Of a stretch of 64,000 nucleotides of DNA, positions 23,049 through 59,035 are shown in pieces (the first letter of the stretch is position 1; each line of letters opens with the position of its first letter). This stretch comes from Aliarcobacter cryaerophilus ATCC 43158 (lineage in GTDB: Bacteria; Campylobacterota; Campylobacteria; Campylobacterales; Arcobacteraceae): the NCBI RefSeq assembly GCF_003660105.1, contig NZ_CP032823.1, positions 868,001-932,000 of the forward strand. The letters are read 5' to 3'. Made by a program: the position numbers and the translations under genes. The notes below the pieces were generated by a model that saw only the letters and a list, made by a program, of their open reading frames with translations, was not told the DNA's origin and did no database searches.

Positions 23049-25430
23049 TTGGGTATGACAGAAACAGACACAAGAGTTAATATTATTGACCCAAAACTTT
23101 ATCAAAGTTCTTGGACTAATAATCTTATTAGTAGAGAATACTATTTTACAGATGGTAGAAAATTAATAGGTGGAAAAAGAGGAAAGAGATATTTTGTAGA
23201 TTATCTTCTAACTTACAAAAATACGAATCTAGCAATTATTGAAGCAAAAGCTCAAAACAAAGACCCACTTGATGGACTTCAACAAGTTATAAACTATGCG
23301 CAAAAACTAAAAATCGATTTTGTTTACTCTACAAATGGAGATAAGATTTATGAACACTCACTCCTTTGTGGAAAAGGTGAGTTTATAGAAGATTATCCAA
23401 CTCCAGAAGAGCTTTTTTATAGAAAATTTGGAAAATTAAAAGAGCAAGAAGAGAAAGTAATCACTCAAAATTTTTATTTTGAAGGGAATAAAAAACCAAG
23501 ATTTTATCAACAAATTGCAGTTCAAAAAGCAGTTGAAGCAATAGTAAATGATAAAAATAGAGTTCTTTTAACTTTGGCAACTGGAACAGGAAAAACATAT
23601 ATAGCTTTTCAAATCGTATATAGATTATTTCAAGCAAAGTGGAATAAAGATAAAACAAACAGAAGACCAAAAATCTTGATTCTTGCAGATAGAAATATAT
23701 TAAAATTACAAGCTATGAGTGAGTTTAATCCCATGGAAAAAGATTTGGTAGATATAAATGGAAAAGATATAAAAAGAAGAGGTGGGAAAGTTCCTACAAA
23801 TGGAAATGTATTTTTTGCTATTTATCAATCTATTGCTGAAAATAAAAATAGAATTATTGAAAATAGTGAAGATGAAAATGAAGATGATGTAATAGCTTAC
23901 TACAAACAGTATCCATCTAACTTTTTTGACTTAGTTATTATAGATGAGTGTCACAGAGGTAGTGCAAATGATACTAGCTCTTGGAGAGATATTTTAAATC
24001 ATTTCTCAAACTCTACTCATTTGGGACTTACAGCAACTCCAAAAAGAGATGACAATGCAGATACTTACAAATACTTTGGAGAGCCAGTTTATGAATACTC
24101 TTTAAAAGATGGAATAAATGATGGATTTCTAACTCCATATAAAGTAAAGAGAATTCAAACAAATATAGATGAGTATCACTTCAATCCTGATGATATAATC
24201 ACAGGTGAGTTGGATAAAAATATAGTAACACTTCAAGAGTTTGAAAAAAGTGTGATTATTCCAAAAAGAACAAGGCTTTTAGCAAAAACAATTTTAGAAA
24301 ATATAAATCCTTTTGATAAAACAATTATTTTTTGTGTAAATCAAGCACATGCAAGTAGTATGAAAGTAGCAATAGATAGATATAAAACTATAAAAGATAG
24401 CAACTATTGTGTAAGAGTTACAAGTGATGAGGGTGAAATTGGAAGAGAATTTTTGGAGAAGTTTCAAAACAATGATTTGGATATTCCAACTATTCTTACA
24501 AGCTCAAAAATGCTAACAACTGGAGTTGATGCAAAAAATGTCAGAAATATAGTTTTAACTGCACCAATTTCTTCTATGACAGAGTTCAAACAGATAATTG
24601 GAAGAGGAACAAGAACTTATGAAGGAAAAGATTTTTTTACGATTATAGATTTTGTAGGAGCTACAAATCTATTTTATGATAAAGCTTGGGATGATGACCC
24701 TTTGAGTGTTGATATAAAAACAACAAAGATAGAAGATATTGAAGATGATGAGATTAATGAAGAAAATCAAACAGATGAAGAAAAACAAAATAAAAAAGAA
24801 AACTCTTTAAATGATGATGAATTTGAAGCAAAAACAAAAGAGGAAAAAGCAAAAAAAGAGCAAGTAATAATAGATATAAAAGGTAAAAAACTAAAAGTAA
24901 TAAATATAGAGACAACTTATGTAGGAGTAGATGGTAAGCCTTTGAGAAGTTCTGAATATCTTGAGCTTTTAATAGGTGTTTTGGGAAGATTTTATAATGA
25001 TGAGCAAACACTAAGAGATATTTGGAGTAATCCAAAAAATAGAAAAGAGCTATTAGAAAAACTAAAAGATATGAATATAGATGAGTCTCAACTTGAAGAT
25101 TTAAAAGATATTTTTGAAGCAAAAAATAGTGATATTTATGATGTTTTGGCTCATTTGTCTTTTAATCACAATATAAAAACAAGAGATGAAAGAGCAATAG
25201 CTGCTTTAAACTCTAAATTTATAGAAAAATACCAAAATGAAAAAGCAAAAGATTTTATAGAGTTTATCCTACAAAAGTATAGAAAATATGGTTTCAAAGA
25301 GCTAGAGGAGAATAAACTCTCAACACTAATAGAGCAAAGTGGATTTGATAAAAAAGATTTAATGGCTTCATTTGGTGATTTTAAAATAAGAGATGAGTAT
25401 TTTGAACTTCAAAAAGAGATTTATAGATAA
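23049..25430 (+). CDS. hsdR: Type I restriction enzyme R subunit (orphan)
   Basis: The 793-residue length matches the EcoAI/EcoEI-like (type IB) HsdR group. Domains in order: PD-(D/E)xK nuclease (YFVDYLLTYK, AIIEAKAQNKDPLDGLQQ), superfamily 2 ATPase (Walker A LATGTGKTYIAF, IIDECHRGS, GLTATPKRDD, IIGRGTRTYEG), a charged linker rich in Glu/Lys, and a C-terminal HsdM-docking helical region. It needs HsdM and HsdS to cut, but only fragments of both remain 3 kb downstream, so it is probably inactive unless another locus supplies them. The TTG at 23049 is 5 bases after AGGGGA; an ATG at 23055 is the alternative. Confidence 0.92.
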   Translation: MGMTETDTRVNIIDPKLYQSSWTNNLISREYYFTDGRKLIGGKRGKRYFVDYLLTYKNTNLAIIEAKAQNKDPLDGLQQVINYAQKLKIDFVYSTNGDKIYEHSLLCGKGEFIEDYPTPEELFYRKFGKLKEQEEKVITQNFYFEGNKKPRFYQQIAVQKAVEAIVNDKNRVLLTLATGTGKTYIAFQIVYRLFQAKWNKDKTNRRPKILILADRNILKLQAMSEFNPMEKDLVDINGKDIKRRGGKVPTNGNVFFAIYQSIAENKNRIIENSEDENEDDVIAYYKQYPSNFFDLVIIDECHRGSANDTSSWRDILNHFSNSTHLGLTATPKRDDNADTYKYFGEPVYEYSLKDGINDGFLTPYKVKRIQTNIDEYHFNPDDIITGELDKNIVTLQEFEKSVIIPKRTRLLAKTILENINPFDKTIIFCVNQAHASSMKVAIDRYKTIKDSNYCVRVTSDEGEIGREFLEKFQNNDLDIPTILTSSKMLTTGVDAKNVRNIVLTAPISSMTEFKQIIGRGTRTYEGKDFFTIIDFVGATNLFYDKAWDDDPLSVDIKTTKIEDIEDDEINEENQTDEEKQNKKENSLNDDEFEAKTKEEKAKKEQVIIDIKGKKLKVINIETTYVGVDGKPLRSSEYLELLIGVLGRFYNDEQTLRDIWSNPKNRKELLEKLKDMNIDESQLEDLKDIFEAKNSDIYDVLAHLSFNHNIKTRDERAIAALNSKFIEKYQNEKAKDFIEFILQKYRKYGFKELEENKLSTLIEQSGFDKKDLMASFGDFKIRDEYFELQKEIYR

Positions 25431-25455
25431 GTAGAAGTATGAGAGGAAAAAACTG

Positions 25456-26286
25456 ATGGCAAAGATAATAGTTCAAGAAAAAGAAATTACTATTTTAACA
25501 GTAGAAAATGAAGATTATATCTCTCTTACAGATATGCTCAAAGCAAAAGATGGAGATTTTTTTATTTCTGATTGGCTTAGAAATAGAAATACTATTGAAT
25601 ATCTTGGAATTTGGGAGAAGATTCATAACCCAAATTTTAATTATGGCGAATTCGCCATAATTAAATCTCAAGCAGGACTTAATAGTTATAAACTAAGCGT
25701 AAAAGAGTGGAGTGAAAAAACAAATGCAATTGGACTTGTTGCTAAAACTGGTCGATATGGTGGAACTTATGCCCATAAAGATATTGCTTTTGAATTTGGG
25801 ATGTGGATAAGTGCGGAGTTTAAAATCTATCTTATCAAAGAGTTTCAAAGACTTAAAGATGAGGAGTTTAAAAAGCTTGGCTGGGATATAAGAAGAAATC
25901 TTACAAAATTAAACTACAAAATCCACACCGATGCTATCAAAGAAAATCTTATCCCAAAAGAATTAACACCACAACAAATAAATTTTGTTTATGCCAATGA
26001 AGCAGATATACTCAATGTCGCTTTATTTGGTCAAACAGCAAAAGAGTGGAGAGAACAAAACGAAAATAAAAAAGGGAATATAAGAGATGAGGCAGATGTA
26101 AATCAACTTGTGTGTCTTGCAAATATGGAATCTTTAAATGCACATTTAATCAATGAGGGGTTTTCAAAAAGTCAAAGAATTGAGAAATTGAATAAAATTG
26201 CTATTAATCAAATGAAGATTTTGAGTGGTGGGGATGTGAAAATATTGGAAAAAGATATAAAGAAAAATTCTATTGAAATAAAATGA
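25456..26286 (+). CDS. KilA-N domain protein
   Basis: The 276-residue protein has a KilA-N domain at about residues 15-125: DYISLTDMLKAKDG, ISDWLRNRNTIEYLGIWEKIHNPNFN, LSVKEWSEKTNAIGLVAKTGRYGGTYAHKDIAFEFGMWISAEFKIYLI. The fold is a DNA-binding one first seen in phages, but this version is common inside type I restriction loci. A C-terminal helical region follows. Its role is unknown. The gene contains a 30-bp perfect palindrome (25636-25665). It follows hsdR by 25 bases and overlaps the next gene by 4. Confidence 0.88.
   Translation: MAKIIVQEKEITILTVENEDYISLTDMLKAKDGDFFISDWLRNRNTIEYLGIWEKIHNPNFNYGEFAIIKSQAGLNSYKLSVKEWSEKTNAIGLVAKTGRYGGTYAHKDIAFEFGMWISAEFKIYLIKEFQRLKDEEFKKLGWDIRRNLTKLNYKIHTDAIKENLIPKELTPQQINFVYANEADILNVALFGQTAKEWREQNENKKGNIRDEADVNQLVCLANMESLNAHLINEGFSKSQRIEKLNKIAINQMKILSGGDVKILEKDIKKNSIEIK
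25636..25665. repeat. 30-bp perfect palindrome inside the KilA-N gene
   Basis: The left half TTTAATTATGGCGAA is the exact reverse complement of the right half; the centre is GCGAATTCGC. It encodes the FNYGEFAIIK stretch and does not disturb the frame. Confidence 0.9.
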
Positions 26287-27023
26287 AAGAGAATATGAAT
26301 ATGATAAAAATAAAGTTAATAATAATTGGTCATTCTGATAGAGTAGTAAACTTTGATTTTATAAAAAAGTATAAATCAAAATTTTTTAATTTTTCAGATA
26401 TTGAGCGTATTAATAATTTACCAAATCCGCAAAAAAATGATGGATATTTAGATATTGTATATACAAAAGCAGAAATTCGAACAGTAATGAATGATATTGA
26501 ATTTGATGGCTTATGTATTGCAATAATGAATTATGGGTTTGATGATAATTTTTATATGCACAGAGTAGGGAATAATAAAGTTTGTATTTCTATTTTTGAA
26601 TTAGAAAGTATCTTAAGTGAAAAGAAAATATCGATTGAAAATTTTATAATTAAAAATGTATATGAAATTTTTATATTTTATAAGATAGTGAAAAATTTAA
26701 CAGATAATAATGAAGTTAAAACATTTATTCATAATGATACTCGTGGTTGTCTATTTGATTTAAATGGAGATAAAAAACATATTGTTTATAATACTGAAAA
26801 GGCTATTATTTGTGATGAATGCAAAGGAAAAATAAGTAAAAAATCTATACCAAAGAATTTTTTAGAGGATATTCAAAGAGAACTTTTAAAAATAGATAAA
26901 CCTTTTATTAAAAAAGTTGAAAATTTTATTTCAAAATATCCATTGTTTTCAGTGTTAGTAACTTTTATCTTTTCAACATTTATCAATTTATTTTCGAATT
27001 GGTTATGGGAAATAATTAAATGA
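26283..27023 (+). CDS. Unknown membrane-anchored protein of a restriction locus
   Basis: I do not recognise a named family. The 246-residue product has an N-terminal alpha/beta-like region (IKIKLIIIGHSDRVV), an internal FDGLCIAIMNYGF segment, then a possible metal site made of His150, Cys156 and a CxxC at 177-180 (FIHNDTRGCLFDLNG, AIICDECKGKI). It ends with one transmembrane helix (LFSVLVTFIFSTFINLF), so it should be tail-anchored with the bulk in the cytoplasm. It overlaps the KilA-N gene and fic by 4 bases each, which shows it belongs to the same operon. An accessory or effector role in defence is inference. Confidence 0.6.
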   Translation: MKENMNMIKIKLIIIGHSDRVVNFDFIKKYKSKFFNFSDIERINNLPNPQKNDGYLDIVYTKAEIRTVMNDIEFDGLCIAIMNYGFDDNFYMHRVGNNKVCISIFELESILSEKKISIENFIIKNVYEIFIFYKIVKNLTDNNEVKTFIHNDTRGCLFDLNGDKKHIVYNTEKAIICDECKGKISKKSIPKNFLEDIQRELLKIDKPFIKKVENFISKYPLFSVLVTFIFSTFINLFSNWLWEIIK

Positions 27024-28084
27024 AACAACAATTATTTAACTTACCATTACAACTAGAAATCGAAACCCAAAAAGTTCTAAAAAAAGCAATATCAGCAAAT
27101 AGAGCTTTAGCAAATTTAAACGGTGTTGCAAGAATTATTCCAAATAGTTCTATTTTAATAAACTCTTTGGTATTACAAGAAGCAAAAGATAGTAGTGCTA
27201 TTGAAAATATTATCACAACTCACGATGAACTTTACAGAGCAAATCTTGATATAGAAAGTGTAACAAATGAAGCAAAAGAGGTGTAAAACTACAAAGAAGC
27301 ACTTTTAAGAGGTTTTTCGCTTGTAAAAGATACAAAACTACTTCTTAAAAAACATATTGTAGAGATTCAAGCTGTTTTAGAACAAAATGATGCAGGGGTA
27401 CGAAAACAAGCAGGAACAAATCTAAAAAATGCTTTGACAGGCGAAGTGATTTATATTCCACCACAAGACTATGAAACTATACAAGAACTTTTGACAAATC
27501 TTGAAAATTATATCAATGAGCCAAATGAACTCGACCCACTTGTAAATATGGCAATAATTCATCATCAATTTGAATAAATCCATCCTTTTTATGATGGAAA
27601 TGGGCGAACGAGAAGAATTATAAATATTTTGTATTTGATACTCAAAGATTTACTTGATATTCCCGTACTTTATCTAAGTCGTTATATTATTACTCATAAA
27701 GCTGATTATTATAGGCTTTTACAAGAAGTTAGAACAGAAGATAAATGGGAAGAGTGGATTTTATATATGCTTGATGCAGTTGAGCAAACTTCACTTGAAA
27801 CAATAGAGCTTATAAATAATATAAGTGATTTGATGATAAAAACACAAGATAAAATATCTGAGGAGTTGCCAAAAATTTATAGTAAAGATTTAGTAGAGAT
27901 ACTTTTTATGCACCCATACACAAAGATAGAATTTTTAGTTGATAGGTTACATATCACAAGAAAAACAGCATCAAAATATTTAAGTGAACTTGAAAGTAGA
28001 GGAATATTAGAAAACATACAAATTAAAAATAGTAAATATTTTATAAATATAGAGCTTTTTGATTTGTTAAGAAAAGGGATATAG
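27020..28084 (+). pseudogene. Fic-family protein gene with two in-frame ochre stops
   Basis: One continuous frame encodes a Fic protein: N-terminal FNLPLQLEIETQKVLKKAISANRAL, the SSAIENIITTHDE helix resembling the inhibitory motif, the Fic core HPFYDGNGRTRR (target-AMPylating motif) and a C-terminal winged-helix segment (ITRKTASKYLSELESRGIL). TAA at 27284-27286 interrupts ...EV-NYKEAL and TAA at 27575-27577 falls one codon before the catalytic His (FE-IHPF). No frameshift is needed. Both stops are consistent with single-base changes, so the gene is recently inactivated. The 3' part after the second stop could restart but would lack the His region. It overlaps the upstream gene by 4 bases. Confidence 0.9.
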
Positions 28085-28097
28085 GTAAAATTCATAC

Positions 28098-28290
28098 AAA
28101 TTTGCTCATACTTTAATAACTATGTGTAAAAAAGATAAAAATTTACTCATAGTTACGAACCTATGTTGAAAAAATAAAGAAATTTACCCATAGCTCAAAA
28201 TATATGTAAATAAAATCGCAAAATCTTTACATATAACTTTTGTTATGTCAAAAAAACAGCAAAATTTTTACATATAAATATTAAAATTCA
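28098..28290. repeat. Tandem array with exact 41-bp period
   Basis: Four full units and one partial unit begin at 28098, 28139, 28180, 28221 and 28262. Each starts AAAT(T/C)T, has CATA at unit positions 10-13 (28107, 28148, 28189, 28230, 28271), and the first four have TATG at positions 24-27. Hence each full unit contains the interrupted palindrome CATA-N10-TATG. The remaining bases diverge. It sits between the dead fic gene and the hsdM remnant. Confidence 0.75.
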
Positions 28291-28314
28291 CCCACTAAAA
28301 AAAGGAAAGCAAAT

Positions 28315-28392
28315 TTGGAAAGCAAAATAAACAGAATAACAGACATCCTAAGAAGAGATGATGGAATAAGTGGTGCTATGCACTACACATAA
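28315..28392 (+). pseudogene. hsdM remnant (first 25 codons)
   Basis: After AAAGGA, a TTG opens a frame reading ESKINRITDILRRDDGISGAMHYT, which is the conserved N-terminus of type I methylase HsdM (normally followed by EQISWILFLKFL). It then meets TAA at 28390. Just past HYT the sequence becomes that of an hsdS gene in another frame, marking a deletion junction at about 28385-28392. Confidence 0.85.
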
Positions 28393-28735
28393 CAGTCCAA
28401 TTTTTATAAAAGAGAAGTTTTGGAATATTGATACTGCATTTGGTATTGAAGCAAATAGAAATTTCCTAATACCTATATTTTTATTTTATTTTACAAAATA
28501 CTTTAATTTTTTAGATTTGAATAAATCAACAACTTTACCATCTTTAGCAAAAACACATTTACTTCAAATTAATATGGTTGTCCCACCCCTAAAAACCCAA
28601 CAAAAAGTAGTTTCATACCTAGATGAAATTTCAAATAAAATGGAAAAAATAAAACAAATCCAAAAAGAGAAAATGCAAAGCCTAAAAGAGCTAAAAGCAT
28701 CTATTTTAGACCAAGCATTTAAAGGTGAGTTATAA
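28393..28735 (+). pseudogene. hsdS remnant (C-terminal recognition domain end and conserved helix)
   Basis: The frame reads from NSPIFIKEKFWNID through KSTTLPSLAKTHLLQINMVVPPLKTQQKVVSYLDEISNKMEK to KELKASILDQAFKGEL, which is the standard C-terminus of a type I specificity subunit: the tail of the second target-recognition domain plus the conserved coiled-coil region. The N-terminal domain and nearly all of hsdM are deleted. A GTG at 28370 could open a 121-residue frame, but its first codons come from hsdM sequence read out of frame. It ends directly against the argC stop. Confidence 0.88.
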
Positions 28736-45444: not shown

Positions 45445-47772
45445 ATGAATTATCTAAAAATACTCGGAAGTAGTGGCAATAAATCAAAGAATTTTGGTAC
45501 TACTTCTTTTCAAATCTCAAATGACACTACTATTGATGCTGGAAATATAATAAATTCTTTAGATGATGAAGCTTATAAAATAAATCATATTTTTGTAACA
45601 CATTCACACTTGGATCATGTAAGTGATATTCCTTTTATGTTGGATAACTGTTTTACAAAAAGAGAAACACCACTTACTGTTTATGGCTCATTAGAGACTA
45701 TACAATTTTTAAAAGAGCATATTTTTAATAATAAAATTTGGCCAGATTTCTCAAATATTAAGCTTTTGAATAAAGATGAAAATACTCTTTTATTTAAAGA
45801 ATTAAAAGAAAATGAAGAGATAATTCATGGTAAATTTAAAATAAAAGCTATAAAAACAGAACATACTGATGGCTCTTTTGGATATATTATTTCTAAAAAT
45901 AGTAGTAGTTATATAATAAGTGGAGATACTGATTTTAATGATAATTTAATCTTTCATATAAATAATACAAAAAATCTAAAAGCTCTTTTTATTGAGTGCT
46001 CTTTTCCTAATAGTTTAGAAAATATTGCAAAAGTAAGTAAACATTTAACTCCTAATAGTTTAAAAATGATTTTAAATAAAATAGAGAATAAAAATCTAGC
46101 TATATTTTTATATCACTTAAAATTTGTACAACAAGATATTTTAAGAAAAGAGGTAGAAAATTTAGGTATTTTAAAAAATGGTGGAAAAATCCTAGAAGAT
46201 GGAGATATTATTCACATTGATGATTTAAAAGTTCACTCAAAGATACAAGATATTGAACTTTTTGATAGAGTTATGGATATAAATTTAAAGTTATCAAGTG
46301 AAAATGATAAAGAGCATTTATATGAAATGATTTTAACTCTAATAAGAGAACTTACAAAAAGTGATGCAGGAACACTATATTTAATAAGTGAGGATAAAAA
46401 ACATTTAGAGTTTAAAGTAGTTCAAAATGAAACTCTTAATATATTTTTAGGAACAAAAGAGGAAAAAATATCTTGGAATCCTTTACCTCTTTATCTTGAA
46501 AATAGTGAAGAAAATAGAGCTATGGTAGCCGTTGTTTGTGCTTTAGATAAAAAAGTTATAAATATTTCAGATGTTTATAATAGTAATGATTATAATTTTG
46601 AAGGTACAAAAGCATTTGATAATAGTAAAAATTATCATTCTAAATCAATGTTAGTAGTTCCTTTGGTAAATCATGAAAATGATGTAATAGGAGTAATCCA
46701 ACTTATAAATAAAGAGATAAAAGAGAAAAATAGTATTTATACTTCTTATGATGAGAAAATAATAAAAGCTCTATCTTTACAAGCTGCTATGGCTTTAACA
46801 AATACTATTTTAATAGATAGTTTAGAAAACTTTTTGGAAAGCTTTGTAAATTCTATTGCAAATGCAATTGATGCAAAATCAAGACATACTTCAACACATA
46901 TTACAAAGATGGCAAAATTAGCTCCTATGATTGCAAATTCAATAAATGAAGATGAAACAATATATAAAAATATAAACTACTCTAAAAATGATTTAAAACA
47001 AATTGAACTAGCTGCAAAACTTCATGATGTTGGAAAAATATCAGTACCAGAGTGGGTAATAGATAAAAGTACAAAACTTCAAAAACTTATAGATGGTTTT
47101 GAGCTTATAAAATTAAGAGCTGAGATTATAAAAAGAGATTTAAAAATTGATTTTTTAGAAAATAAATTAACTAAAGAGAGCTATGAGTATAGTTTACAAA
47201 ATATTGAAGATAGTTTGGAGTTTATAGGAAAAGCAAATATAGGTCAAGAGTTTATGAGTGATGTTGATATAAAAAGGGTTGAAGAGATATCTTTATATAA
47301 ATATTATGAAAATAGTATAGAAAAAGACTTTTTAACTAGAGATGAAGTCTATAATATATCAATTCGAAAAGGAACTTTAACAAAAGAAGAGAAAGATATT
47401 ATGAACTCTCATGCAACATTGTCTTATGAAATGTTAAGTGCATTGCCATTTCCTAAAAAGTATTCAAATATTATGCATATTGCTGTAAATCATCATGAAA
47501 AATTAAATGGAAAAGGTTATCCTAGAGGATTAAGTGCACATGAGATAGCTTTAGAAGATAGAATTCTAATTTTAGCTGATATTTTTGAAGCACTTAGTTC
47601 AAATGATAGACCATATAAAGGTGTTAAGACACTAAGTGAAATATTTAAAATATTAGATTTTATGGTAAAAGATGGTGAAATAGATAAAGATTTACTAGAT
47701 TTTTTTAAAAAGAGTAGAGCATTTATACAATATTGTGAAACTGAACTTTTAACTGAGCAGTTAGATGTTTAA
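45445..47772 (+). CDS. Metallo-beta-lactamase-fold phosphodiesterase / GAF / HD-GYP protein
   Basis: Three domains are visible in 775 residues. The first, about 1-250, is a metallo-beta-lactamase fold with HxHxDH at 53-58 (THSHLDHVSDIPFMLDN), His140, Asp161 and His200/224, a complete metal set closest in pattern to class II cyclic-nucleotide phosphodiesterases. The second, about 270-455, is a GAF domain (ELTKSDAGTLYLIS, SMLVVPLVNHENDVIGVIQLINK). The third, about 460-775, is HD-GYP (RHTSTHITKMAKL, LHDVGKISVPEWVI, VNHHEKLNGKGYPRGL) with an unusual insert of about 100 residues between HD and GYP parts. It should cleave cAMP/cGMP and c-di-GMP, which is inference. Its end overlaps the cyclase gene by 8 bases. 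Confidence 0.88.
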   Translation: MNYLKILGSSGNKSKNFGTTSFQISNDTTIDAGNIINSLDDEAYKINHIFVTHSHLDHVSDIPFMLDNCFTKRETPLTVYGSLETIQFLKEHIFNNKIWPDFSNIKLLNKDENTLLFKELKENEEIIHGKFKIKAIKTEHTDGSFGYIISKNSSSYIISGDTDFNDNLIFHINNTKNLKALFIECSFPNSLENIAKVSKHLTPNSLKMILNKIENKNLAIFLYHLKFVQQDILRKEVENLGILKNGGKILEDGDIIHIDDLKVHSKIQDIELFDRVMDINLKLSSENDKEHLYEMILTLIRELTKSDAGTLYLISEDKKHLEFKVVQNETLNIFLGTKEEKISWNPLPLYLENSEENRAMVAVVCALDKKVINISDVYNSNDYNFEGTKAFDNSKNYHSKSMLVVPLVNHENDVIGVIQLINKEIKEKNSIYTSYDEKIIKALSLQAAMALTNTILIDSLENFLESFVNSIANAIDAKSRHTSTHITKMAKLAPMIANSINEDETIYKNINYSKNDLKQIELAAKLHDVGKISVPEWVIDKSTKLQKLIDGFELIKLRAEIIKRDLKIDFLENKLTKESYEYSLQNIEDSLEFIGKANIGQEFMSDVDIKRVEEISLYKYYENSIEKDFLTRDEVYNISIRKGTLTKEEKDIMNSHATLSYEMLSALPFPKKYSNIMHIAVNHHEKLNGKGYPRGLSAHEIALEDRILILADIFEALSSNDRPYKGVKTLSEIFKILDFMVKDGEIDKDLLDFFKKSRAFIQYCETELLTEQLDV

Positions 47773-49927
47773 AAGCAAGATTAAAAAATTTTTAATCTAT
47801 GGATTTTTTTCTTTTTTAATTTCAAGTTTTTTAATAGTTTTTTATATATTTTTCCCATCACTTCTTGATTCTTTTGATAATAGAATTAGAGATTCATATT
47901 TTATTTTTAAAGGTGAAACAAAGACTTCAAATAATGTTGTAATTATAGATATAGATGATATTTCTATAAAAGAGTTTGGACAGTGGCCTTGGAGTAGAAA
48001 TATATTATCAAAAATTATAGAAAATTTAACAAATTCAAATATTGCTGTAGTTGGAATGGATATTGTTTTTGCAGAAGAAGATAGAACTTCACCATCTTTA
48101 ATAGCAAAAAAATTAGGTATAAACAAAGAGTTAGAAAACTATGATTTTGAGTTTGCACAAGTCATTTCAAAATCGGCTGTAATTTTAGGATATAGCTTTA
48201 ATATTGAAGATAATAACTCAAGTAAAAATTCACCTCAAATTCCTGCAATATTTATTGAAAAAAATAAAAATAGTGATGCAAACTATTTAATTGAGGCTTT
48301 TGGAACGACTTTAAATCTTCCAATATTGCAAGAAAATTCATATTCAAGTGGTTTTTTTAATATTATTCCAGATGAAAGTGGAGTTATAAGAAGTGTTCCA
48401 TTGTTAATTTCTTATAATGATACTTTATATCCATCTTTGGCTTTGGAGATTATAAGAGCTTTAAATGATACCCAAAAAGTTTTTGTAAACTATGATGAAA
48501 ATGGAGTTTCAAATATTCAATTAGGAGATTTTTATATTCCTACAGACAAATTTGGAAGAATATTTATAAACTATCGTGGAGCTTCTAAAAGTTTTCAATA
48601 TATTAGTGCAAAAGATATTTATAACAACAATTTTAAAGCAGAAGATATAGAAGGGAAAATAGCCCTTTTAGGTACAAGTGCAACAGGACTTTATGATTTA
48701 AGGGCAACCCCTTATGAAAATGTATTTCCAGGGGTAGAAGTACATGCAAATGTAATTGATAATATTTTACAAGGTGATTTTCTTCAAAAAGCTTCTTATC
48801 TTGATGGTGTAAATATAGTATCAATTTTTGTACTTGCTTTTTTTGCATTCTTTTTAGTTTCAGTTACTCCTTTTCTTTTAAAGCCCTTTGTTTTTTTACT
48901 ATTTTTTAGTTTATATGTAGTTTTTTCGTATCATGCTTTATTTTCTTATGGTTTAGTTTTAAATATAATTTTTCCACTTTCTTCTATAGTTTTAGCCTTT
49001 GTATTCTCTATCATAATTGATTTTTTCTATAATATAAAACAAGAAAAAGCTATTAAAAATAAGTTTGCTTCAAAAGTATCCAAAAGTGTTATGGATGATA
49101 TTTTAAAAAATATAGATAATAATGAATTTAGTGCAAAAAACAAAGAGATAACAATCTTTTTTAGTGATATTAGAGGTTTTACTCAAATTTCAGAACAACT
49201 AAAAGCAAAAGAACTAATAGAGTATTTAAATGCTTATATGGAACCTATGAGTAGTATTATTATAAAAAATCAAGGAACAATTGATAAGTTTATTGGAGAT
49301 GCTATTATGGCATATTGGAATGCTCCACTTGATGTTGAAAATCATGCAGATATGGCAGTTAAAGCATCATTAGAACAATTAGTAGCTTTAGATGAATTAA
49401 ATAGAAAATTTGTAAAGGATAAATTACCAACGATTGATATAGGAATAGGGTTAAATACTGGTGAAGTAATAGTTGGTGAGATGGGAAGTAGTTTAAGAAG
49501 TGATTATACTGTTATTGGTGATGCTATAAATTTAGGTTCAAGAGTTGAGTCTTTATGTAAATATTATGGTTCAAAGCTAAATATAACAAACTTTACAAAA
49601 GATAAATTAAAAGAAAAATATATACTTAGATTTTTAGATTTTGTAAGAGTAAAAGGTAAAAACCAACCAGTTGAAATTTGGCAAGTAATAGGAACTGGTG
49701 AGGCTCAAGATGAATTAAAAGATGAGTTAGAAGATTATCATAAGGCAATTGAGTTTTATAAAGAGTCAAATTTTTCAGATGCTTTAGAACTTTTTATAAA
49801 ACTAGAAAATCTCGAAAATAAAACGAATAAAAATATTTATAAAATTTATATAAAAAGATGTGAAGAGTTTATAAAAACACCACCAAAAGATTTTGATGGT
49901 GTTTATTTGCATACAACAAAAGCTTAG
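47765..49927 (+). CDS. CHASE2-domain class III adenylate cyclase
   Basis: An N-terminal membrane helix, a periplasmic CHASE2 sensor (about 35-330; DNRIRDSYFIF, IDIDDISIKEFGQWPWSRNIL, VVGMDIVFAEEDR), three further membrane helices (about 345-420) and a class III cyclase domain (about 450-640) follow in order. Catalytic features are the metal Asp in FFSDIRGFT and KFIGDAIMAYW, and YTVIGDAINLGSRVE with transition-state Asn and Arg. The Lys of KFIGD and Thr of YTVIGD favour ATP over GTP. A TPR-like tail ends the 720-residue protein. It starts within the upstream phosphodiesterase gene, so synthesis and breakdown enzymes are co-translated. Confidence 0.93.
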   Translation: MFKSKIKKFLIYGFFSFLISSFLIVFYIFFPSLLDSFDNRIRDSYFIFKGETKTSNNVVIIDIDDISIKEFGQWPWSRNILSKIIENLTNSNIAVVGMDIVFAEEDRTSPSLIAKKLGINKELENYDFEFAQVISKSAVILGYSFNIEDNNSSKNSPQIPAIFIEKNKNSDANYLIEAFGTTLNLPILQENSYSSGFFNIIPDESGVIRSVPLLISYNDTLYPSLALEIIRALNDTQKVFVNYDENGVSNIQLGDFYIPTDKFGRIFINYRGASKSFQYISAKDIYNNNFKAEDIEGKIALLGTSATGLYDLRATPYENVFPGVEVHANVIDNILQGDFLQKASYLDGVNIVSIFVLAFFAFFLVSVTPFLLKPFVFLLFFSLYVVFSYHALFSYGLVLNIIFPLSSIVLAFVFSIIIDFFYNIKQEKAIKNKFASKVSKSVMDDILKNIDNNEFSAKNKEITIFFSDIRGFTQISEQLKAKELIEYLNAYMEPMSSIIIKNQGTIDKFIGDAIMAYWNAPLDVENHADMAVKASLEQLVALDELNRKFVKDKLPTIDIGIGLNTGEVIVGEMGSSLRSDYTVIGDAINLGSRVESLCKYYGSKLNITNFTKDKLKEKYILRFLDFVRVKGKNQPVEIWQVIGTGEAQDELKDELEDYHKAIEFYKESNFSDALELFIKLENLENKTNKNIYKIYIKRCEEFIKTPPKDFDGVYLHTTKA

Positions 49928-51240
49928 AAAGAGTAGTAAATATTTGTTCTTACAACATATTTATCATATTCATATATATTTTGATTTGAATCATTATTTA
50001 TATATCTTAAAGTTGCACCTAAAGAGAGATTTTTGTTTAGAGATTGTAAAACACCTAAATCAAGAATAACTTTATCATCTCTTTTTTTGTTGTTATACAA
50101 AACCTCTTCTTTTACTTTATATTGATCTTTATATAGTTCAATTCCACTTGTAAGAATTGTTGATTGTGTAAGTGGATACATATTTTCATATCTTAAACTT
50201 GCAAAGTTATAGTCCACATTCCAAGCTTTACCTTTATCCTTATTATCTGTTCCAAAAGCAAAAGATAAAGTATTCATACCAAATTTTTCAGTTAATAAAA
50301 CTAAACTATTTGAAAGTTCATAATACATTGAATCTCTAAACTCATAATCCGTTTGTTTAAAATCTTTTTTAATAAGTTTTACTTTTGTTTTATAAATAAG
50401 ATCTTTATCTATTTGATAATCAAAAGAGGGAGTTATAATATAGTTAAATAAATATGTACTATTATCTAACCAAACATAGTTGTAATCGAAAGCTAAAGAT
50501 GATTTTGATTTTGAAGTATAGTAAGAAAGTCCAGTTCCAAAAACTGCAAGGCTTAAATCATTGTTATGGTCTTTGTTAAACTTTTGCATATATCCTACGA
50601 ATTTATTATCCATAGTTAAATTTTCTTTAATCTTAAATGTATGGTTTAAAGCTAAGATATATTCTGCAACATGATCACTTTTTTTATCTGGAATAGATAA
50701 AGGAATATTCCCCCAATTTACAAAATCATCATTTGAGTTGTTGTCTGTATTTGAATCATATCCATACCCAAAACCTAAAGTTGTTTTTAAAAAGTTTCTT
50801 TGAGACTTTTTATTTAAAGAATCTAAAGTTAATTCTATATTTTTTCTTACATTCATAGGTAAACTATTATCTTTTAATACATCTTGATATAAAACTTCAG
50901 CTTCTTCATATTTTTTTTGTTGAAAATATGTTTGTGCAAGTTCTAGTTTTACTCTACTATTATTTGGAGTTTGTTCTAAAAGCTCTTTATATAAAGTTTC
51001 AGCCTCTTCAAACTTACCTATCTCATAAGCACTTCTTGCTAGAATAAATGTTAGATTAGAGTCTAATTTCTCTTTTTTTAAATACTCTTTAAATGCTAAA
51101 TAACTATCTTGAAAAGCTCTATTATTGTAACTATCAAGAGCTTTTGCAAAATGCTCATTCGAGTAGTTTTCATTTGCAAAAATTAGTGTAGGTAAAAATA
51201 GTGCTTGAAAAATTAATTTTTTATTTGATTTTAATTTCAT
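49924..51240 (-). CDS. TPR plus beta-barrel outer-membrane protein
   Basis: A signal peptide (LIFQALFLPTLIFA) is followed by TPR repeats at about residues 20-150 (ALDSYNNRAFQDSYLAFKEYL, GKFEEAETLYKELLEQTPNNSRVKLELAQTYFQQKKYEEAEVLYQDVL). A region of about 280 residues with alternating aromatic strands and a terminal aromatic residue (TNIYYSF) follows, typical of an outer-membrane barrel like the DUF560/Slam or porin-like surface proteins. The frame opens at 51264, inside the fecR-like gene, but AAGGAA 9 bases before the ATG at 51240 fixes the start 4 bases after that gene's stop. Its end overlaps the cyclase stop. Confidence 0.8.
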   Translation of the reverse strand: MKLKSNKKLIFQALFLPTLIFANENYSNEHFAKALDSYNNRAFQDSYLAFKEYLKKEKLDSNLTFILARSAYEIGKFEEAETLYKELLEQTPNNSRVKLELAQTYFQQKKYEEAEVLYQDVLKDNSLPMNVRKNIELTLDSLNKKSQRNFLKTTLGFGYGYDSNTDNNSNDDFVNWGNIPLSIPDKKSDHVAEYILALNHTFKIKENLTMDNKFVGYMQKFNKDHNNDLSLAVFGTGLSYYTSKSKSSLAFDYNYVWLDNSTYLFNYIITPSFDYQIDKDLIYKTKVKLIKKDFKQTDYEFRDSMYYELSNSLVLLTEKFGMNTLSFAFGTDNKDKGKAWNVDYNFASLRYENMYPLTQSTILTSGIELYKDQYKVKEEVLYNNKKRDDKVILDLGVLQSLNKNLSLGATLRYINNDSNQNIYEYDKYVVRTNIYYSF

Positions 51241-51244
51241 ATTT

Positions 51245-52402
51245 TTACGGTTCCTTATTTGCACTAAATGTGCCTTCTAAAGTATTTGAACGATTATCCA
51301 TCGTAATATTTCCAGAAACACTGTCTATTGTAGCACCATTAAATACACCTGAAATATTAGACCAACTAAATCCATTATTTGATATTACGCCATCACTTAA
51401 GCTTTCACTTGAAATAAAATTATCTGAATTGAACTCATAACCTCCAGATACTCTACTATTTCCTCCTCCAAAAATAAAATTAAAAAATATTATATTTTCA
51501 TGTATTGTTCCAACATCCATATTTGGAGTGATAGTTCCCCTAAAGTTTAATTGAGTGGTTGTTGTATTATCCATCAAATTTTGAACATAAGCTGGATCTG
51601 TTATATTTGATGAATTATTTGAATTTTGAATAGAGTTGTTTATAGAGTTACTAATTCTTGCATTATTATTTTCATCTTGAATTGGACCTACTCCCCAGTA
51701 CCCCCAAGAATTTTGATTATCTTGATTTGGAGTCATCTGAGGGCTTTGACTATTTTGAAAAGCTAATGGACTACTAGGATTATCAAAGTTATTTGGACTT
51801 TGGTTATTACCTAAACTATTAGTGTTTAATCTTGAGTTAACATCTTGAAATTGTTGTGGTTCAATAGGCGTTGATTGACTTGGAATTTGATTACTGAAAG
51901 TATTTACAAAAAAACCTTGAGAAATTTCTCTAGTTACTCCAAAAGAATTTACAAAAATTGCACCTTGAGTACAAAATACTCTATTTTGATCACCATAAAT
52001 TTCAGTTCCTCTTATTCCAATAGTTGCATTTTTTGTTTTTAGTTTAAATTTTTCTGGATTTACTTTTCCAATTTGTCCTGTAATTGCATGAAAAGCACCT
52101 TTAGATACACTTAATTCAGTTTTTGCAGAGTTTTTATTATTTGAATCAAAGAAATAATCCTCAATTTTTAAACTTGACTCTTTTCCTATTGTGATAACAG
52201 TATTGTCTATAAAAGTTATTTTTACTTTTGAGTTTGTTTTTGTCTCAATAAAGTCATTATTACTTATTTGGTCACTAATGTTTAATCTAAGTGTTTCTTC
52301 ACCTCTTTTTACAAAAGCTTCACCTTCAATAAGTGTTATTGTTCCTATATTTGCAAAAAGTGTTGAAACAAATAATAAAAACATAAAAATAATTTTTTTC
52401 AT
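51245..52402 (-). CDS. Exported FecR-domain protein with low-complexity linker
   Basis: A signal peptide (KKIIFMFLLFVSTLFA) precedes a FecR domain at about residues 20-150 (GTITLIEGEAFVKRGEETLRL, IETKTNSKVKITFIDNTVITIGKESSLKIEDYFFD, KTELSVSKGAFHAITG, KFKLKTKNATIGIRGTEI). A long Asn/Gln/Ser/Pro-rich linker spans about 175-270. A small C-terminal beta domain ends GNITMDNRSNTLEGTF. There is no membrane helix after the signal, unlike anti-sigma FecR proteins, so it is probably periplasmic or surface-bound. It forms an operon with the TPR/barrel gene. TTAGGAG precedes the ATG. Confidence 0.88.
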   Translation of the reverse strand: MKKIIFMFLLFVSTLFANIGTITLIEGEAFVKRGEETLRLNISDQISNNDFIETKTNSKVKITFIDNTVITIGKESSLKIEDYFFDSNNKNSAKTELSVSKGAFHAITGQIGKVNPEKFKLKTKNATIGIRGTEIYGDQNRVFCTQGAIFVNSFGVTREISQGFFVNTFSNQIPSQSTPIEPQQFQDVNSRLNTNSLGNNQSPNNFDNPSSPLAFQNSQSPQMTPNQDNQNSWGYWGVGPIQDENNNARISNSINNSIQNSNNSSNITDPAYVQNLMDNTTTTQLNFRGTITPNMDVGTIHENIIFFNFIFGGGNSRVSGGYEFNSDNFISSESLSDGVISNNGFSWSNISGVFNGATIDSVSGNITMDNRSNTLEGTFSANKEP

Positions 52403-52607: not shown

Positions 52608-53774
52608 ATGATGGGTCCTATTACACTTGCAAATGATGTTGTATCGTTTACTAGTCTTCAGTTATCTACTTTTGTTGTTATTGCTTTTGCAATATTGGTT
52701 TTGTTTACTACTTTGAAACAATCAACACATAGTGATGTTTTTCCAATATCTGTTACAAATGAGTTAAAAGGTCTTGGAATTTTAACAGTTGTTTTTGCAC
52801 ACTTTGCATATATGAAAGTTACAAATGCTGATTTTTTGTTTCCACTTTCTATAATTGCTGGTGTTGGAGTTGATTTATTCTTATTTATGTCAGGATTTGG
52901 TCTTACAGTTGGAATGCTTAAAAGACCTATGAAGGCAGTTGATTTTTATAAAAAAAGAGTTATAAAAATATTTATTCCATTCTGGATTGCTTTAATTATT
53001 ATGTTTATTGCAGATGCAATGTTTATGGATAAAACTTATTCTATAGGATATATTATAAAATCTATGTTAGGATTTTTCCCAACAGCAGACGGTTTTGGTG
53101 ATGTAAACTCTCCTTTTTGGTATATTACATGGATGATTATGTTTTATTTGATATATCCATTGGTATTTTTTAAAGATAAACCATGGTTAACTGCAATTAT
53201 TTTAGCGGTTATTGCTACAATTATTGGAACTTTTAATATCTTTGATTTGGGAAGTAACTGGCTTCATAGACTTCATACTGTTGCTTTTTCTATGGGTATT
53301 ATTTTAGCTTGGCTTTTACAAGTAAAAGAAGGTAAAAAAAATAGATTTATAGAATATATTAAAGATTTCAGAGACAATTCAAAAGATATGAAATATATTA
53401 TTATTTTTATTATGTTTGCTATTGTATTTTATGTATCACAAAGAACAGGTGCTGGTTCATGGCCTGCTTTAACTTCTATTTTAGGACAAGGTTTTTTTGT
53501 AGAACAACTAATGTCAATTGTAATAATGCTAGCATTTACAGTTATTTTTATACTTAAAAAAGTTGATAGCAAATTTCTGACAATGTATGGAGTTTACTCT
53601 TATGAAGTTTACTTAATTCACTGGCCACTTATGGCAAAGTATGATATTTTCTTTGTATATCTTCCAGCTTGGGCTGCTGTTATTGCTTGGTTGGTTGCAT
53701 TTATTTTAGTAAGTATGCTTCTTCAAAGATTAGTAACTCCTGTTAGTAATTTTGTAGATAAAATTACTAAATAA
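52608..53774 (+). CDS. Acyltransferase 3 family membrane protein (OafA-like)
   Basis: About ten membrane helices, with the family motifs ELKGLGILTVVFAHFAYM (catalytic His) and GVGVDLFLFMSGFGLTVGM, then FYKKRVIKIFIPFW, define an acyltransferase 3 protein of 388 residues. Such enzymes O-acylate cell-surface sugars or lipids from the inner membrane. The target is unknown; no polysaccharide genes adjoin. AGGGGGA lies about 10 bases before the first of two tandem ATG codons. A strong terminator follows. Confidence 0.88.
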   Translation: MMGPITLANDVVSFTSLQLSTFVVIAFAILVLFTTLKQSTHSDVFPISVTNELKGLGILTVVFAHFAYMKVTNADFLFPLSIIAGVGVDLFLFMSGFGLTVGMLKRPMKAVDFYKKRVIKIFIPFWIALIIMFIADAMFMDKTYSIGYIIKSMLGFFPTADGFGDVNSPFWYITWMIMFYLIYPLVFFKDKPWLTAIILAVIATIIGTFNIFDLGSNWLHRLHTVAFSMGIILAWLLQVKEGKKNRFIEYIKDFRDNSKDMKYIIIFIMFAIVFYVSQRTGAGSWPALTSILGQGFFVEQLMSIVIMLAFTVIFILKKVDSKFLTMYGVYSYEVYLIHWPLMAKYDIFFVYLPAWAAVIAWLVAFILVSMLLQRLVTPVSNFVDKITK

Positions 53775-56493: not shown

Positions 56494-56527
56494 AAAAACC
56501 AAAAAGCTATTAAGCTTTTTGGTTTTT
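56494..56527. terminator. Strong bidirectional hairpin terminator
   Basis: AAAAACCAAAAAGCT and its exact complement form a 15-bp stem around ATTA, ending in T-runs on both strands; it overlaps the last codons of the 56510 gene. Confidence 0.85.
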
Positions 56528-59035
56528 TAAAGAGTAAAGTTCCAATATTCTCATAATAATTGCAGAGATGTAAGGAATAGTTTGAATAAATATTGTTGCT
56601 GCAAATACATAAATCTCTGTAATTCCAGATTTATTTGTGTATATTAAAGATACAAATGCAGTTAAAAGTAAAATACATAAAATAGTTTCATATTTTATTG
56701 GATTTGCACTTTTTTTAGCTTTTCCACCTTTTTCTGTTCTTTTAAATGGTAATCCATCTTTGATAAATCCATCAAATACAGCTTTAAATATTATTAATTG
56801 TAAACTCATTGAAGCTATAGAACTAAGAAGAATATCTTTAAAGCTAGCTTTTACTTTTGTTCTATAAAGTATAAATGTATGCAAAATATTTACTATAAAT
56901 GCCGTAATAATAGGAATAGTAAGAGGAATTGTAGGAATTGTAACACCAACAAAGATTATTACAGGAACCCAAATAATATTCATAACAGCCATAATTGGAC
57001 CCATAGCATCACTTAACCAGAAAAACCAACCTGTAACAAATTTATTTTTTTGAGCAGGACTTAATCTTTTTGAACCAGGTTTAAACTCTCTCCAATGTTT
57101 TTTAAGAATCTGAATAGCTCCATAAGCCCATCTATGTCTTTGAGTTTTAAATGCTTCAACAGTATCTGGTAAAAGCCCAAATCCATATCTTCTATTTGTA
57201 TAGTGCGCAATATATCCAGCTTCAAATAGTCTAAGCCCTAATTCACTATCTTCAACAATAGTGTCAGTTCCCCAACCACCAACTTCCATCATAGCACTAA
57301 GTCTTACCATAACCATTGTTCCATGAACAACGATAGCATTTTCTTCATTTCTATCAACCATACCAATATCAAAGAAACCAGCATATTCTGCATTCATAGC
57401 TTTTTTGATAATACTCTCATCACCATCTCTATGATCTTGTGGAGCTTGAACAATTGCAACTTTTGGGTCATCAAATAGTGGAACTAAATCTACAAGCCAA
57501 GGAGATTCAACTTTATAATCAGCATCTATAACTGCAATAATTTGTGCATCTTTTGAAGTGTATTCAAGTGCTGTATTTAAAGCTCCAGCTTTAAATCCAG
57601 TACATTTAATATCAAGATATTTAAACTTATCTCCCAATTTTTCACAAAGCTCTTTTATTGGAGTTTTATAAAAATCTTCAGGAGTATTATTTATAATAAC
57701 CAAAACTTCATAGTTTGGATATGTAAGTTTTGATAAACTCTCTAAAGTTTCAGCCAAAACATGAGGTTGTTCTTTGTATGCAGGAACATGAATAGATACA
57801 AGTGGTGCATTTTGTGATTTTAAATCAAGAGGAACTAGTCTTGATGGCTGAACTCCAATAGAGCTTCTAAATAGTTCATTTGCTTTTGCTAAAGTTATGA
57901 TTACAAGAGGAATCATAAGAAAACTTCCCATTCCCCACATAATCCACATTCCAAAATTCATATAGTTTACAAATGGGTATATTGCAGCCATTACAATACC
58001 AAATGCCATACCTTGGGCAGCAATTGCATAAGCAAAAGCATGGCTAATATTTACTCTTTGATTTTTTAACCCAAAAAGTGTCAATAATGCTCCAATAATA
58101 ATCGCAGCAATCATTTGATAAAACCAATATTGATTTAATTCAACTTCACCAGCTAATTGAAATTTTAAAGCTCTAGAAGTTGTAAAAATTCCCCAATATT
58201 GTCCAACATTTCCTTCATCATAACCTTTCCAAGGTTGATCTAAAGCTTCAATTATATTGTAATGCCAACCTTTTTCATGAGCTAGATTTACAAAACCTCT
58301 TATAGCTTGTGCTTGATTTTTGATACTAGGAATTGCACTATTATTGTTGTATCCATGGCTAGGCCATCCTGTCTCACCAATCACTATTTTTCTATTTGGA
58401 AAAAGATCTTCAACTAGTGTATATTTTTCAATAATAAATTCATTGTATCTTTCTATTGGAACTTTTTCCCAATATGGTAAAATATGAATAGTTAAGAAAT
58501 CAACATGACTAGCTAATTCTGGATGTTTTTCCCATATATCCCAAGTTTCTGCAGATGTTACAGGCTTTTTTGTGTGAGTTTTCATAAAATCAATGTAAGC
58601 ATATAGCTCCAAAGGCTCAAGTTCTTTTCTTAAAAGTACCTCATTTCCTACTATTACAGATTGAATTCTATTTGGATACTCTTTTAAAATTTCTAATGCT
58701 CTTTGGATTTCAAGATTATTTTCTTCTAAATCACCACCTATCCAAAGTCCTAAATCAATAGGAAGATTTGAATCTTTACTAGAGTTAAGTATTTTATAAG
58801 CTTCCAAAGTTCCATAAGTTCTAAGTTTGTTCGTAAAATTTTCAAATAAATTTACATCATAAGCAATTTGTTCGCTTGAAAGTAAATTTTTATCATATCC
58901 TTCAAATGGTGAATATGACAATGATTCGATTTTTTCAAACGAGTTTTCATTTAGTGTTACTAAGTTATCTCTTGATAACCAAAAAAAGACTTGGAAAAGT
59001 CCAGCCATAATAAGCCCTAAGATAATATATCTCAA
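56510..59035 (-). CDS. GH17-GT2 fusion, NdvB-like beta-glucan synthase candidate
   Basis: Residues about 30-310 resemble glycoside hydrolase family 17 (beta-1,3-glucanase/transglucosylase): GNEVLLRKEL (acid/base Glu), DFLTIHILPYWE and IGETGWPSHG (nucleophile Glu). Several membrane helices and a family 2 glycosyltransferase domain at about 400-650 follow, with VSIHVPAYKEQP, IAVIDADYKVE, TIVEDSELGLRLFEAGY and QRHRW, then further helices. This matches NdvB-type synthases that make and branch or cyclise beta-1,3-glucan; the product here is inferred. The start is TTG, 6 bases after AGAAGGA. It is a single-gene unit divergent from dsbB. Confidence 0.88.
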   Translation of the reverse strand: MRYIILGLIMAGLFQVFFWLSRDNLVTLNENSFEKIESLSYSPFEGYDKNLLSSEQIAYDVNLFENFTNKLRTYGTLEAYKILNSSKDSNLPIDLGLWIGGDLEENNLEIQRALEILKEYPNRIQSVIVGNEVLLRKELEPLELYAYIDFMKTHTKKPVTSAETWDIWEKHPELASHVDFLTIHILPYWEKVPIERYNEFIIEKYTLVEDLFPNRKIVIGETGWPSHGYNNNSAIPSIKNQAQAIRGFVNLAHEKGWHYNIIEALDQPWKGYDEGNVGQYWGIFTTSRALKFQLAGEVELNQYWFYQMIAAIIIGALLTLFGLKNQRVNISHAFAYAIAAQGMAFGIVMAAIYPFVNYMNFGMWIMWGMGSFLMIPLVIITLAKANELFRSSIGVQPSRLVPLDLKSQNAPLVSIHVPAYKEQPHVLAETLESLSKLTYPNYEVLVIINNTPEDFYKTPIKELCEKLGDKFKYLDIKCTGFKAGALNTALEYTSKDAQIIAVIDADYKVESPWLVDLVPLFDDPKVAIVQAPQDHRDGDESIIKKAMNAEYAGFFDIGMVDRNEENAIVVHGTMVMVRLSAMMEVGGWGTDTIVEDSELGLRLFEAGYIAHYTNRRYGFGLLPDTVEAFKTQRHRWAYGAIQILKKHWREFKPGSKRLSPAQKNKFVTGWFFWLSDAMGPIMAVMNIIWVPVIIFVGVTIPTIPLTIPIITAFIVNILHTFILYRTKVKASFKDILLSSIASMSLQLIIFKAVFDGFIKDGLPFKRTEKGGKAKKSANPIKYETILCILLLTAFVSLIYTNKSGITEIYVFAATIFIQTIPYISAIIMRILELYSLKNQKA

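Follow-up and report, generated by a model that had tools for sequence, protein, structure and literature searches.

A CHASE2 adenylate cyclase module of Aliarcobacter cryaerophilus with a predicted Slam-type barrel protein and a FecR partner assigned a TbpB-type C-terminal handle

A gene cluster for a cyclase, a cyclic AMP (cAMP) phosphodiesterase, a FecR protein and a tetratricopeptide repeat (TPR) protein has been described in Campylobacterota (PMC9239204, mBio 2022), and its authors inferred horizontal gene transfer and proposed that the products act in one pathway. The same four genes are found in a 64,000-nucleotide stretch of the Aliarcobacter cryaerophilus ATCC 43158 genome (NZ_CP032823.1, positions 868,001 to 932,000), hereafter the window, and the proposal that we make for them is likewise one of a single pathway. 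A preliminary description of the window, prepared from its letters, knew of no account of the four-part set as one system, which is contradicted by the cluster of PMC9239204. In the excerpt of that paper the products are worded as a FecR-domain outer membrane protein, a TPR protein and a phosphodiesterase able to hydrolyse cAMP, and the excerpt makes no mention of a Slam-type barrel, a handle, a cyclic-nucleotide GAF domain or an HD-GYP domain. The set itself has thus been in print since 2022; the nature of its parts and the way in which they fit together look new.

The second close counterpart is the NsrA-CyaK-Clr system of Sinorhizobium meliloti, in which a barrel protein, apparently with FecR and TPR parts as well, also stands beside a CHASE2 cyclase. 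NsrA raises cAMP upon a surface signal (PMC7529298, PMC13001267), NsrA and CyaK are both required for the response to an external protein, and the barrel of NsrA was placed at residues 600-1200 (PMC7529298). On Sinorhizobium pSymB, we located an unannotated open reading frame (ORF; L190, 4406-8005) of 1200 amino acids with FecR at residues 66-160 and TPRs up to residue 587, the stop codon of which (TGA, 8006-8008) has one base in common with the start codon (ATG, 8008) of the adjoining gene, which encodes a CHASE2 cyclase. Identified by place and size only, this ORF is apparently NsrA, carrying FecR, TPR and barrel in one chain, a composition that looks new within the literature searched; Pfam detected no TbpB_B_D in it at E≤0.01. 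The locus in the window differs in that 1) FecR and TPR/barrel are encoded by two genes, whereas NsrA is one fused chain of 1200 amino acids, and 2) the output in S. meliloti is the CRP-type regulator Clr, whereas a GAF/HD-GYP enzyme is present here.

Two further systems resemble parts of the locus. In type XI secretion systems (T11SS; Slam/DUF560, PMC8406197), an outer membrane protein made of TPRs and a barrel is found next to a protein with a TbpB-type C-terminal barrel; no paper joining FecR with T11SS was found in the literature searched, PMC12282271 being without FecR. Bd1971 is a cAMP-sensing c-di-GMP (cyclic di-GMP) phosphodiesterase of the EAL type (PMC6717892) in which cAMP controls c-di-GMP breakdown within one protein, as is proposed for the enzyme in the window, but it consists of a CRP-like cNMP domain and EAL, whereas the window enzyme combines GAF and HD-GYP with a metallo-beta-lactamase (MBL) domain. 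The same paper cites Leptospira Lcd1, a GGDEF enzyme the GAF of which senses cAMP; no paper joining a cAMP-GAF with HD-GYP was found in the literature searched. CHASE2 is also found with FecR in a Burkholderia kinase operon, and in 2016 the factors recognised by CHASE2 domains were stated as not known (PMC5192318).

The four genes were present as the preliminary description had claimed (Table 1), with the strands and junctions that it gave: the phosphodiesterase and cyclase genes overlap by 8 bases (47765-47772), and the two operons end stop-on-stop, the TAG of the plus strand (49925-49927) and the TAA of the minus strand (49926-49924) sharing 2 bases. The barrel gene probably starts at the ATG at 51240, 4 bases past the FecR stop, and not at the GTG at 51264. 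In gene order, Pfam assigned PDEase_II, GAF and HD_5/HD to the first protein, CHASE2 and Guanylate_cyc to the second, TPR models including TPR_Slam to the third and FecR to the fourth. The host genome (2.1 Mb) contained one match to the window cyclase (E≤0.001) and one FecR match. A scan for promoter-like sites (62 versus 56.1 expected) and terminator-like sites (1 versus 1.3) was uninformative.

Table 1. Coordinates of the four genes and of the domains discussed in the text
Feature	Position in the window	Strand	Basis
MBL + GAF + HD-GYP protein, 775 aa	45445..47772	+	ORF list
GAF domain, residues 290-451	46312..46797	+	PDB sequence search, profile
HD-GYP domain, residues ~480-750, HD separated from the remainder by a long insert	46882..47694	+	Pfam HD_5/HD, two segments
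CHASE2 class III adenylate cyclase, 720 aa	47765..49927	+	ORF list, Pfam
Cyclase protein domains: CHASE2, residues 22-359; cyclase, residues 458-639	within 47765..49927	+	Pfam
TPR + outer-membrane barrel ORF, 446 aa from GTG	49924-51264 (likelier gene 49924..51240)	-	ORF list, junction
Exported FecR-domain protein, 385 aa	51245..52402	-	ORF list, Pfam
FecR domain, residues 18-192	51827..52351	-	model, fold matches
C-terminal handle, TbpB_B_D-like, residues 271-383	51254..51592	-	relatives' profiles

Linkage was surveyed in 104 Arcobacteraceae genomes, 53 of which carried the main cyclase class (classes were set from search scores); these 53 exclude four genomes in which only a second cyclase class was found and one that had just a cyclase domain. 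The 53 genomes count G048, a fragment the locus of which was left out, whereas the 53 loci count G073 twice (two fragments) and represent 52 genomes; 10 to 11 of these loci are cut near contig ends yet were counted, and the genomes are related, so that counts are not independent events. The barrel gene was present in 48 of the 53 genomes with the main cyclase versus 1 of the other 51 genomes (p 1e-22 by Fisher's test, kinship ignored), the sole match outside the 53 (G087) being a 90-residue TPR match, and FecR was present in 55 of the 57 genomes with a CHASE2 cyclase of either class versus 3 of the remaining 47. Within 3.5 kb of the cyclase, the barrel was found in 39 of the 53 main-class loci (downstream and collinear in 19, downstream and convergent in 19, upstream in 1) and FecR in 34. 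The phosphodiesterase gene was no more than 200 bases away in 36, preceding the cyclase on its own strand in 35 and following it in 1; all three partners were near the cyclase in 24. Ten uncut loci had no nearby barrel. In seven of them (L039, L042, L043, L045, L056, L058, L062), neither barrel nor long FecR was near the cyclase and both were encoded elsewhere in the same genome, and in the other three (L067, L051, L053; genomes G021, G058, G060) the genome had no barrel match at E≤1e-5. In L056, the MBL and the remaining domains are separate genes flanking the cyclase on either side.

For a wider range, a genome collection was scanned with 26 aligned cyclases, and the best 80 of 583 confirmed stretches, mostly from Campylobacterota and gamma-, beta- and alphaproteobacteria with a few others, were taken; these include a few Arcobacter contigs already counted in the family survey. 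Within 3.5 kb of the cyclase, FecR was found in 31, the barrel in 13 and the phosphodiesterase in 24 of the 80, and in Nitrincola the gene order was FecR-handle, barrel, cyclase. The profiles used here were trained on Arcobacteraceae, and that for FecR was iterated on the counted loci, the comparison between near and far regions serving as the control: 33 FecR ORFs were near (≤3.5 kb, 482 kb) versus 1 farther out (577 kb), with 13 versus 0 for the barrel and 26 versus 4 for the phosphodiesterase. Linkage, co-occurrence and near/far enrichment support the claim that the four genes belong together, and they form a real module. The preliminary description had named the independent occurrence of the two operons in related genomes as evidence to the contrary; such occurrence is seen in part, the operons being unlinked in the seven loci above. 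Although those seven loci would suit mere neighbours kept in order by descent and sharing no function, such an explanation is highly improbable, as the barrel lies on the same side of the cyclase in both orientations, the genes are retained together even when unlinked (48/53 versus 1/51), and the association recurs with other cyclase classes and as a fusion in Sinorhizobium.

At all 14 loci of the second cyclase class, the cyclase gene and a short FecR gene were divergent neighbours, and no barrel or phosphodiesterase was found in these 14; together with the 31 wider loci, this bears out the recurrence of FecR beside CHASE2 cyclases. In six loci with second-class cyclases (L089-L094; e.g. L092, 11065-11924), two ORFs with a one-base overlap of the ATGA kind were also noticed to share the FecR domain between them, the first ending in IG(I/L)RG in five loci and in IGINK in L094, and the second opening with a signal-peptide-like stretch of its own in all six. 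Downstream of the module in L054 (16678-18958), a GGDEF protein, a short FecR and an OmpA-like lipoprotein stand in a row (by eye), and the same row is present in L051 and L053 as judged from gene lengths.

The barrel protein of the window scored 36.9 bits with TPR_Slam (Pfam cut-off 35.2), and its predicted model (pLDDT 80.5) has TPR helices at residues 34-154 followed by 14 strands at 157-445, which is presumably also the strand number of Slam barrels; score and model together match the Slam-type architecture of a periplasmic TPR part followed by a 14-strand barrel. Among 40 aligned family members, TPR_Slam was found at E≤1 in 38 and SlipAM (PF04575, DUF560) in 8 (best 4.8e-10), and the Nitrincola relative reached 37 bits with SlipAM (cut-off 22). 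A SlipAM search of the window's own genome returned nothing, the control genomes being silent too. The best solved fold matches by Z were CymA and OmpG, which we take to be 14-strand porins (Z 20.6-23.5, root-mean-square deviation (rmsd) 2.9-4.0, 228-273 residues aligned); no Slam structure was among the 50 listed fold matches. Judged by its relatives, the TPR/barrel protein is probably of the Slam (T11SS) kind. BcsC and PelBC are among the listed matches and general TPR models match most family members, as expected if the protein were instead a polysaccharide exporter of the BcsC/PelB/PgaA kind, with FecR only a regulator or anchor and no protein exported; however, we consider this very unlikely, given a TPR_Slam score above the cut-off, SlipAM in relatives, a TbpB-type handle on the neighbouring protein and the finding of no polysaccharide gene within the module.

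The FecR protein scored 49.1 bits with the Pfam model (cut-off 24) and has, by eye, a signal peptide without a lipobox directly before the FecR domain, which was modelled mostly at pLDDT 82-93. Among solved structures, its fold was closest to the cell-surface signalling domain of PupR (Z 15.7; 134 residues aligned at rmsd 2.4), followed by a putative anti-sigma factor (Z 15.2). In FecR/PupR signalling, the anti-sigma protein has a cytoplasmic anti-sigma part, and an ECF (extracytoplasmic function) sigma factor and a TonB receptor are encoded nearby. The fold is common to both systems, whereas the protein described here is exported, with a signal peptide in place of the cytoplasmic part, and stands without a neighbouring sigma factor and TonB receptor, no sigma factor being found among six scanned proteins (the four of the module and one near each end); its signal would go to CHASE2 instead.

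The FecR proteins of the family share a C-terminal domain, hereafter the handle, which matched TbpB_B_D in 14 of 36 (best 1.1e-12) and FHBP_C in 3 of 36 at E≤1. When a profile of 39 C-termini, that of the window included, was compared with PDB, all 17 matches at E≤0.001 were TbpB, LbpB or GNA2132 (NHBA), the best at 1.4e-11, and 25 of 27 at E≤10 were TbpB/LbpB/NHBA together with hemophilin/haemophore and haemoglobin-haptoglobin utilization proteins. A profile built without the window's genus matched the window FecR protein at residues 271-383 (E 9.6e-7, database of 20000), and it is only via this profile of relatives that the window protein would qualify as the TbpB_B_D-type neighbour expected of a T11SS cargo. 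Over 7255 ORFs, the genus-free profile gave 48 matches at E<1e-3, 47 being FecR ORFs and one a 3' piece of a motif-ending ORF. Of the 47 long FecR proteins that were complete, 40 carried the handle, which ended 0-7 residues short of the C-terminus and was doubled in four; among the short FecR ORFs, 23 with split halves taken separately, none did. These counts use a profile largely built from the same proteins (the contig-cut or handle-less ORFs L041, L049, L068, L096 and L105 were omitted from it), and the independent comparisons are those with Pfam TbpB_B_D and PDB. In a fold search with the window FecR model, fHbp and TbpB appeared at E≥2 and were not counted. In 49 of 50 cases, a barrel gene on the same strand lay no more than 400 bases from the long FecR gene; handle and barrel are gained or lost together, as would be expected of exporter and cargo. 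By these comparisons, the FecR partner is assigned a handle of the TbpB type, which is characteristic of T11SS cargo; this assignment is apparently new.

Across relatives, the FecR proteins range from 240 to 2991 amino acids, the longest with repeats; in the 2991-residue protein (L057, 6900-15872), the repeats are long and near-identical, and the handle motif was visible by eye under the domain threshold. Such lengths would befit an adhesin-like surface protein that is made or anchored under cAMP/c-di-GMP control, in which case barrel and FecR would be an output of the module and CHASE2 would sense something else. The FecR domain also resembles 5ix9, a 'cell surface anchoring domain' that we take to be the anchor of an RTX adhesin (Z 7.3, below the level at which fold alone tells; rmsd 2.1, 74/76 aligned, 27% identity; remaining matches Z≤4.9), and weakly the LapA retention model (23.5 bits, under the cut-off of 50); among the literature matches listed, LapA retention module and FecR meet only in unrelated papers. 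In S. meliloti, cAMP-Clr also targets another FecR gene, smc02177, which proved dispensable for perceiving the tested signal (PMC5498481), and this fits FecR as output. However, short FecR genes without barrel or handle are still divergent beside CHASE2 cyclases (14/14), and perception upstream of CyaK requires NsrA, in which FecR, TPR and barrel apparently form one chain (PMC7529298), so that we hold the output explanation to be unlikely, though worth keeping in view.

Somewhat less likely still is a secretion checkpoint, in which unexported FecR cargo would bind and inhibit (or activate) CHASE2. The cAMP level would then report how loaded or how fit the exporter is, and no external ligand would be involved. 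It agrees with the handle-bearing FecR that accompanies the barrel and with a fold like that of PupR, which presumably senses through an outer-membrane partner; short FecR, however, is found beside CHASE2 without any exporter, and NsrA responds to an external protein (PMC7529298).

The phosphodiesterase scored 56.5 bits with PDEase_II (cut-off 23.7), 47.6 with GAF (22.4) and 116.2 with HD_5 (27.2). In 33 aligned enzymes, which include L105, a different HD-GYP protein without MBL, the MBL motif HxHxDH and the further ligands expected of a class II cAMP phosphodiesterase were conserved (seven residues in 32 each, D57 in 31), as were the HD-GYP motifs (HD and HH in 33, G in 33, Y in 30, P in 32), while the upstream H481 varies (20/33). 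Among 64 aligned cyclases, D468 was found in 63, D512, K508, T582 and N589 in all, and R593 in 57; these comprise the two metal aspartates (D468, D512) and the substrate and transition-state residues. With the catalytic residues of MBL, HD-GYP and cyclase intact, the turnover of cAMP and c-di-GMP suggested earlier is plausible on sequence grounds.

The GAF domain carries an N-K-(F/Y)-D-E motif conserved in 32-33 of the 33 enzymes, NKFDE being presumably the motif of cyclic-nucleotide-binding GAFs. Searched alone against PDB sequences, the window GAF matched PDE5 at 7.2e-17 and the adenylate cyclase 1ykd, presumably CyaB2, at 3.9e-12, with no NifA-type GAF at E≤1, and all 21 PDB matches of the GAF profile at E≤0.001 were cyclic-nucleotide phosphodiesterases, 1ykd, or 4mcw, which we take to be a GAF-HD-GYP protein. 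As controls from related genomes, two GAFs matched NifA-type GAFs first and a third (L201) matched nothing at E<0.6. Seven relatives' GAFs near CHASE2 cyclases (four in GAF-MshEN-T2SSE ATPases, one in a GAF-HATPase, two in GAF-HD-GYP proteins) matched, as a set, 1ykd first (9e-44). We read the GAF of the enzyme as the module's putative cAMP receptor, through which cAMP may gate c-di-GMP breakdown, an arrangement that is apparently new. The genome to which the window belongs encodes four cNMP_binding proteins (L191-L194), by eye two CRP-like and two cNMP-CBS-DUF294-like, and none of the four showed, by eye, a canonical cAMP cassette; a GAF receptor would therefore fill this gap. The four ATPases (L128, L137, L138, L148) are of the PilB/GspE type; an MBL phosphodiesterase is close to those of L137, L138 and L148, and FecR/barrel are present in L128. 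These loci may encode a motor, for pili or for secretion, that both cAMP and c-di-GMP gate.

The explanation that we prefer, tentatively and with confidence a little short of even, is a signalling module spanning two membranes, in which a barrel-held FecR would act on CHASE2, CHASE2 on cAMP, and cAMP on the GAF/HD-GYP enzyme, with reset by MBL. In this scheme, the Slam/T11SS-type barrel would export or hold the handle of the FecR partner, while the FecR domain would remain periplasmic and touch the CHASE2 domain of the inner-membrane cyclase. A surface condition would alter the state of the barrel/FecR pair (ligand bound, export stalled or completed), upon which CHASE2 would change cAMP synthesis; cAMP would then bind the GAF of the partner enzyme and gate HD-GYP, lowering c-di-GMP, until the MBL domain of the same enzyme hydrolysed the cAMP and reset the system. 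More doubtful, though possible, is the specific form of this proposal in which the T11SS-type exporter and the handle-bearing FecR constitute a trans-envelope receptor for CHASE2 and the GAF encoded in the same operon reads cAMP and switches HD-GYP in a self-resetting manner.

Several observations weigh against the two-membrane module. The phosphodiesterase is near the cyclase in only 36 of the 53 main-class loci, and no partner at all was found in 29 of the best 80 wider loci. At E≤1, the window proteins themselves matched neither SlipAM (barrel) nor, directly by Pfam, TbpB_B_D (FecR); the handle of the window protein was not confidently modelled (pLDDT 23-53), its membership resting on relatives and one profile. 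BBP2_2, another barrel family, matched more of the 40 aligned members (19, best 3.8e-6) than the 8 matched by SlipAM, and polysaccharide exporters with TPRs and a barrel (BcsC, PelB/PelBC) are among the listed fold matches. The dispensability of smc02177 and its control by cAMP-Clr point the same way. As for the GAF, resemblance to the cyclic-nucleotide kind is not equal to binding, the two control GAFs that match NifA-type GAFs first also reach a phosphodiesterase at 1e-7 and, in one case, 1ykd at 2.6e-6, and among the seven relatives' GAFs only that of L107 retains the K of the NK motif, the other six being without it.

Of the preliminary interpretation, the unity of the four genes, the turnover of both nucleotides and the recurrence of FecR with CHASE2 have held, and the claim of no earlier description has not; the Slam-type barrel, the TbpB-type handle, the cyclic-nucleotide-like GAF and the fused Sinorhizobium counterpart had escaped it. 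If the FecR partner is the ligand of CHASE2 and is held by a Slam-type barrel, the question of the CHASE2 ligand would become directly testable. If the proposal is true, T11SS cargo would gain a signalling role, Sinorhizobium NsrA would be unified with a set of Campylobacterota and Pseudomonadota, and cAMP and c-di-GMP would be linked within one enzyme.

The genes next to the module, for proteins of about 650, 469, 293 and 610 amino acids, were considered as further members and rejected, being by eye housekeeping genes (ABC-F, anthranilate-synthase-like, PdxJ-like and UvrB-like). Elsewhere in the window, inspection by eye revealed 1) genes resembling a type I restriction set at 23049-28735, among them those for a KilA-N-like protein and a short fragment similar to HsdS, and 2) a protein with a glycoside-hydrolase-like half joined to a membrane glycosyltransferase at 56510-59035, with an acyltransferase nearby at 52608-53774.

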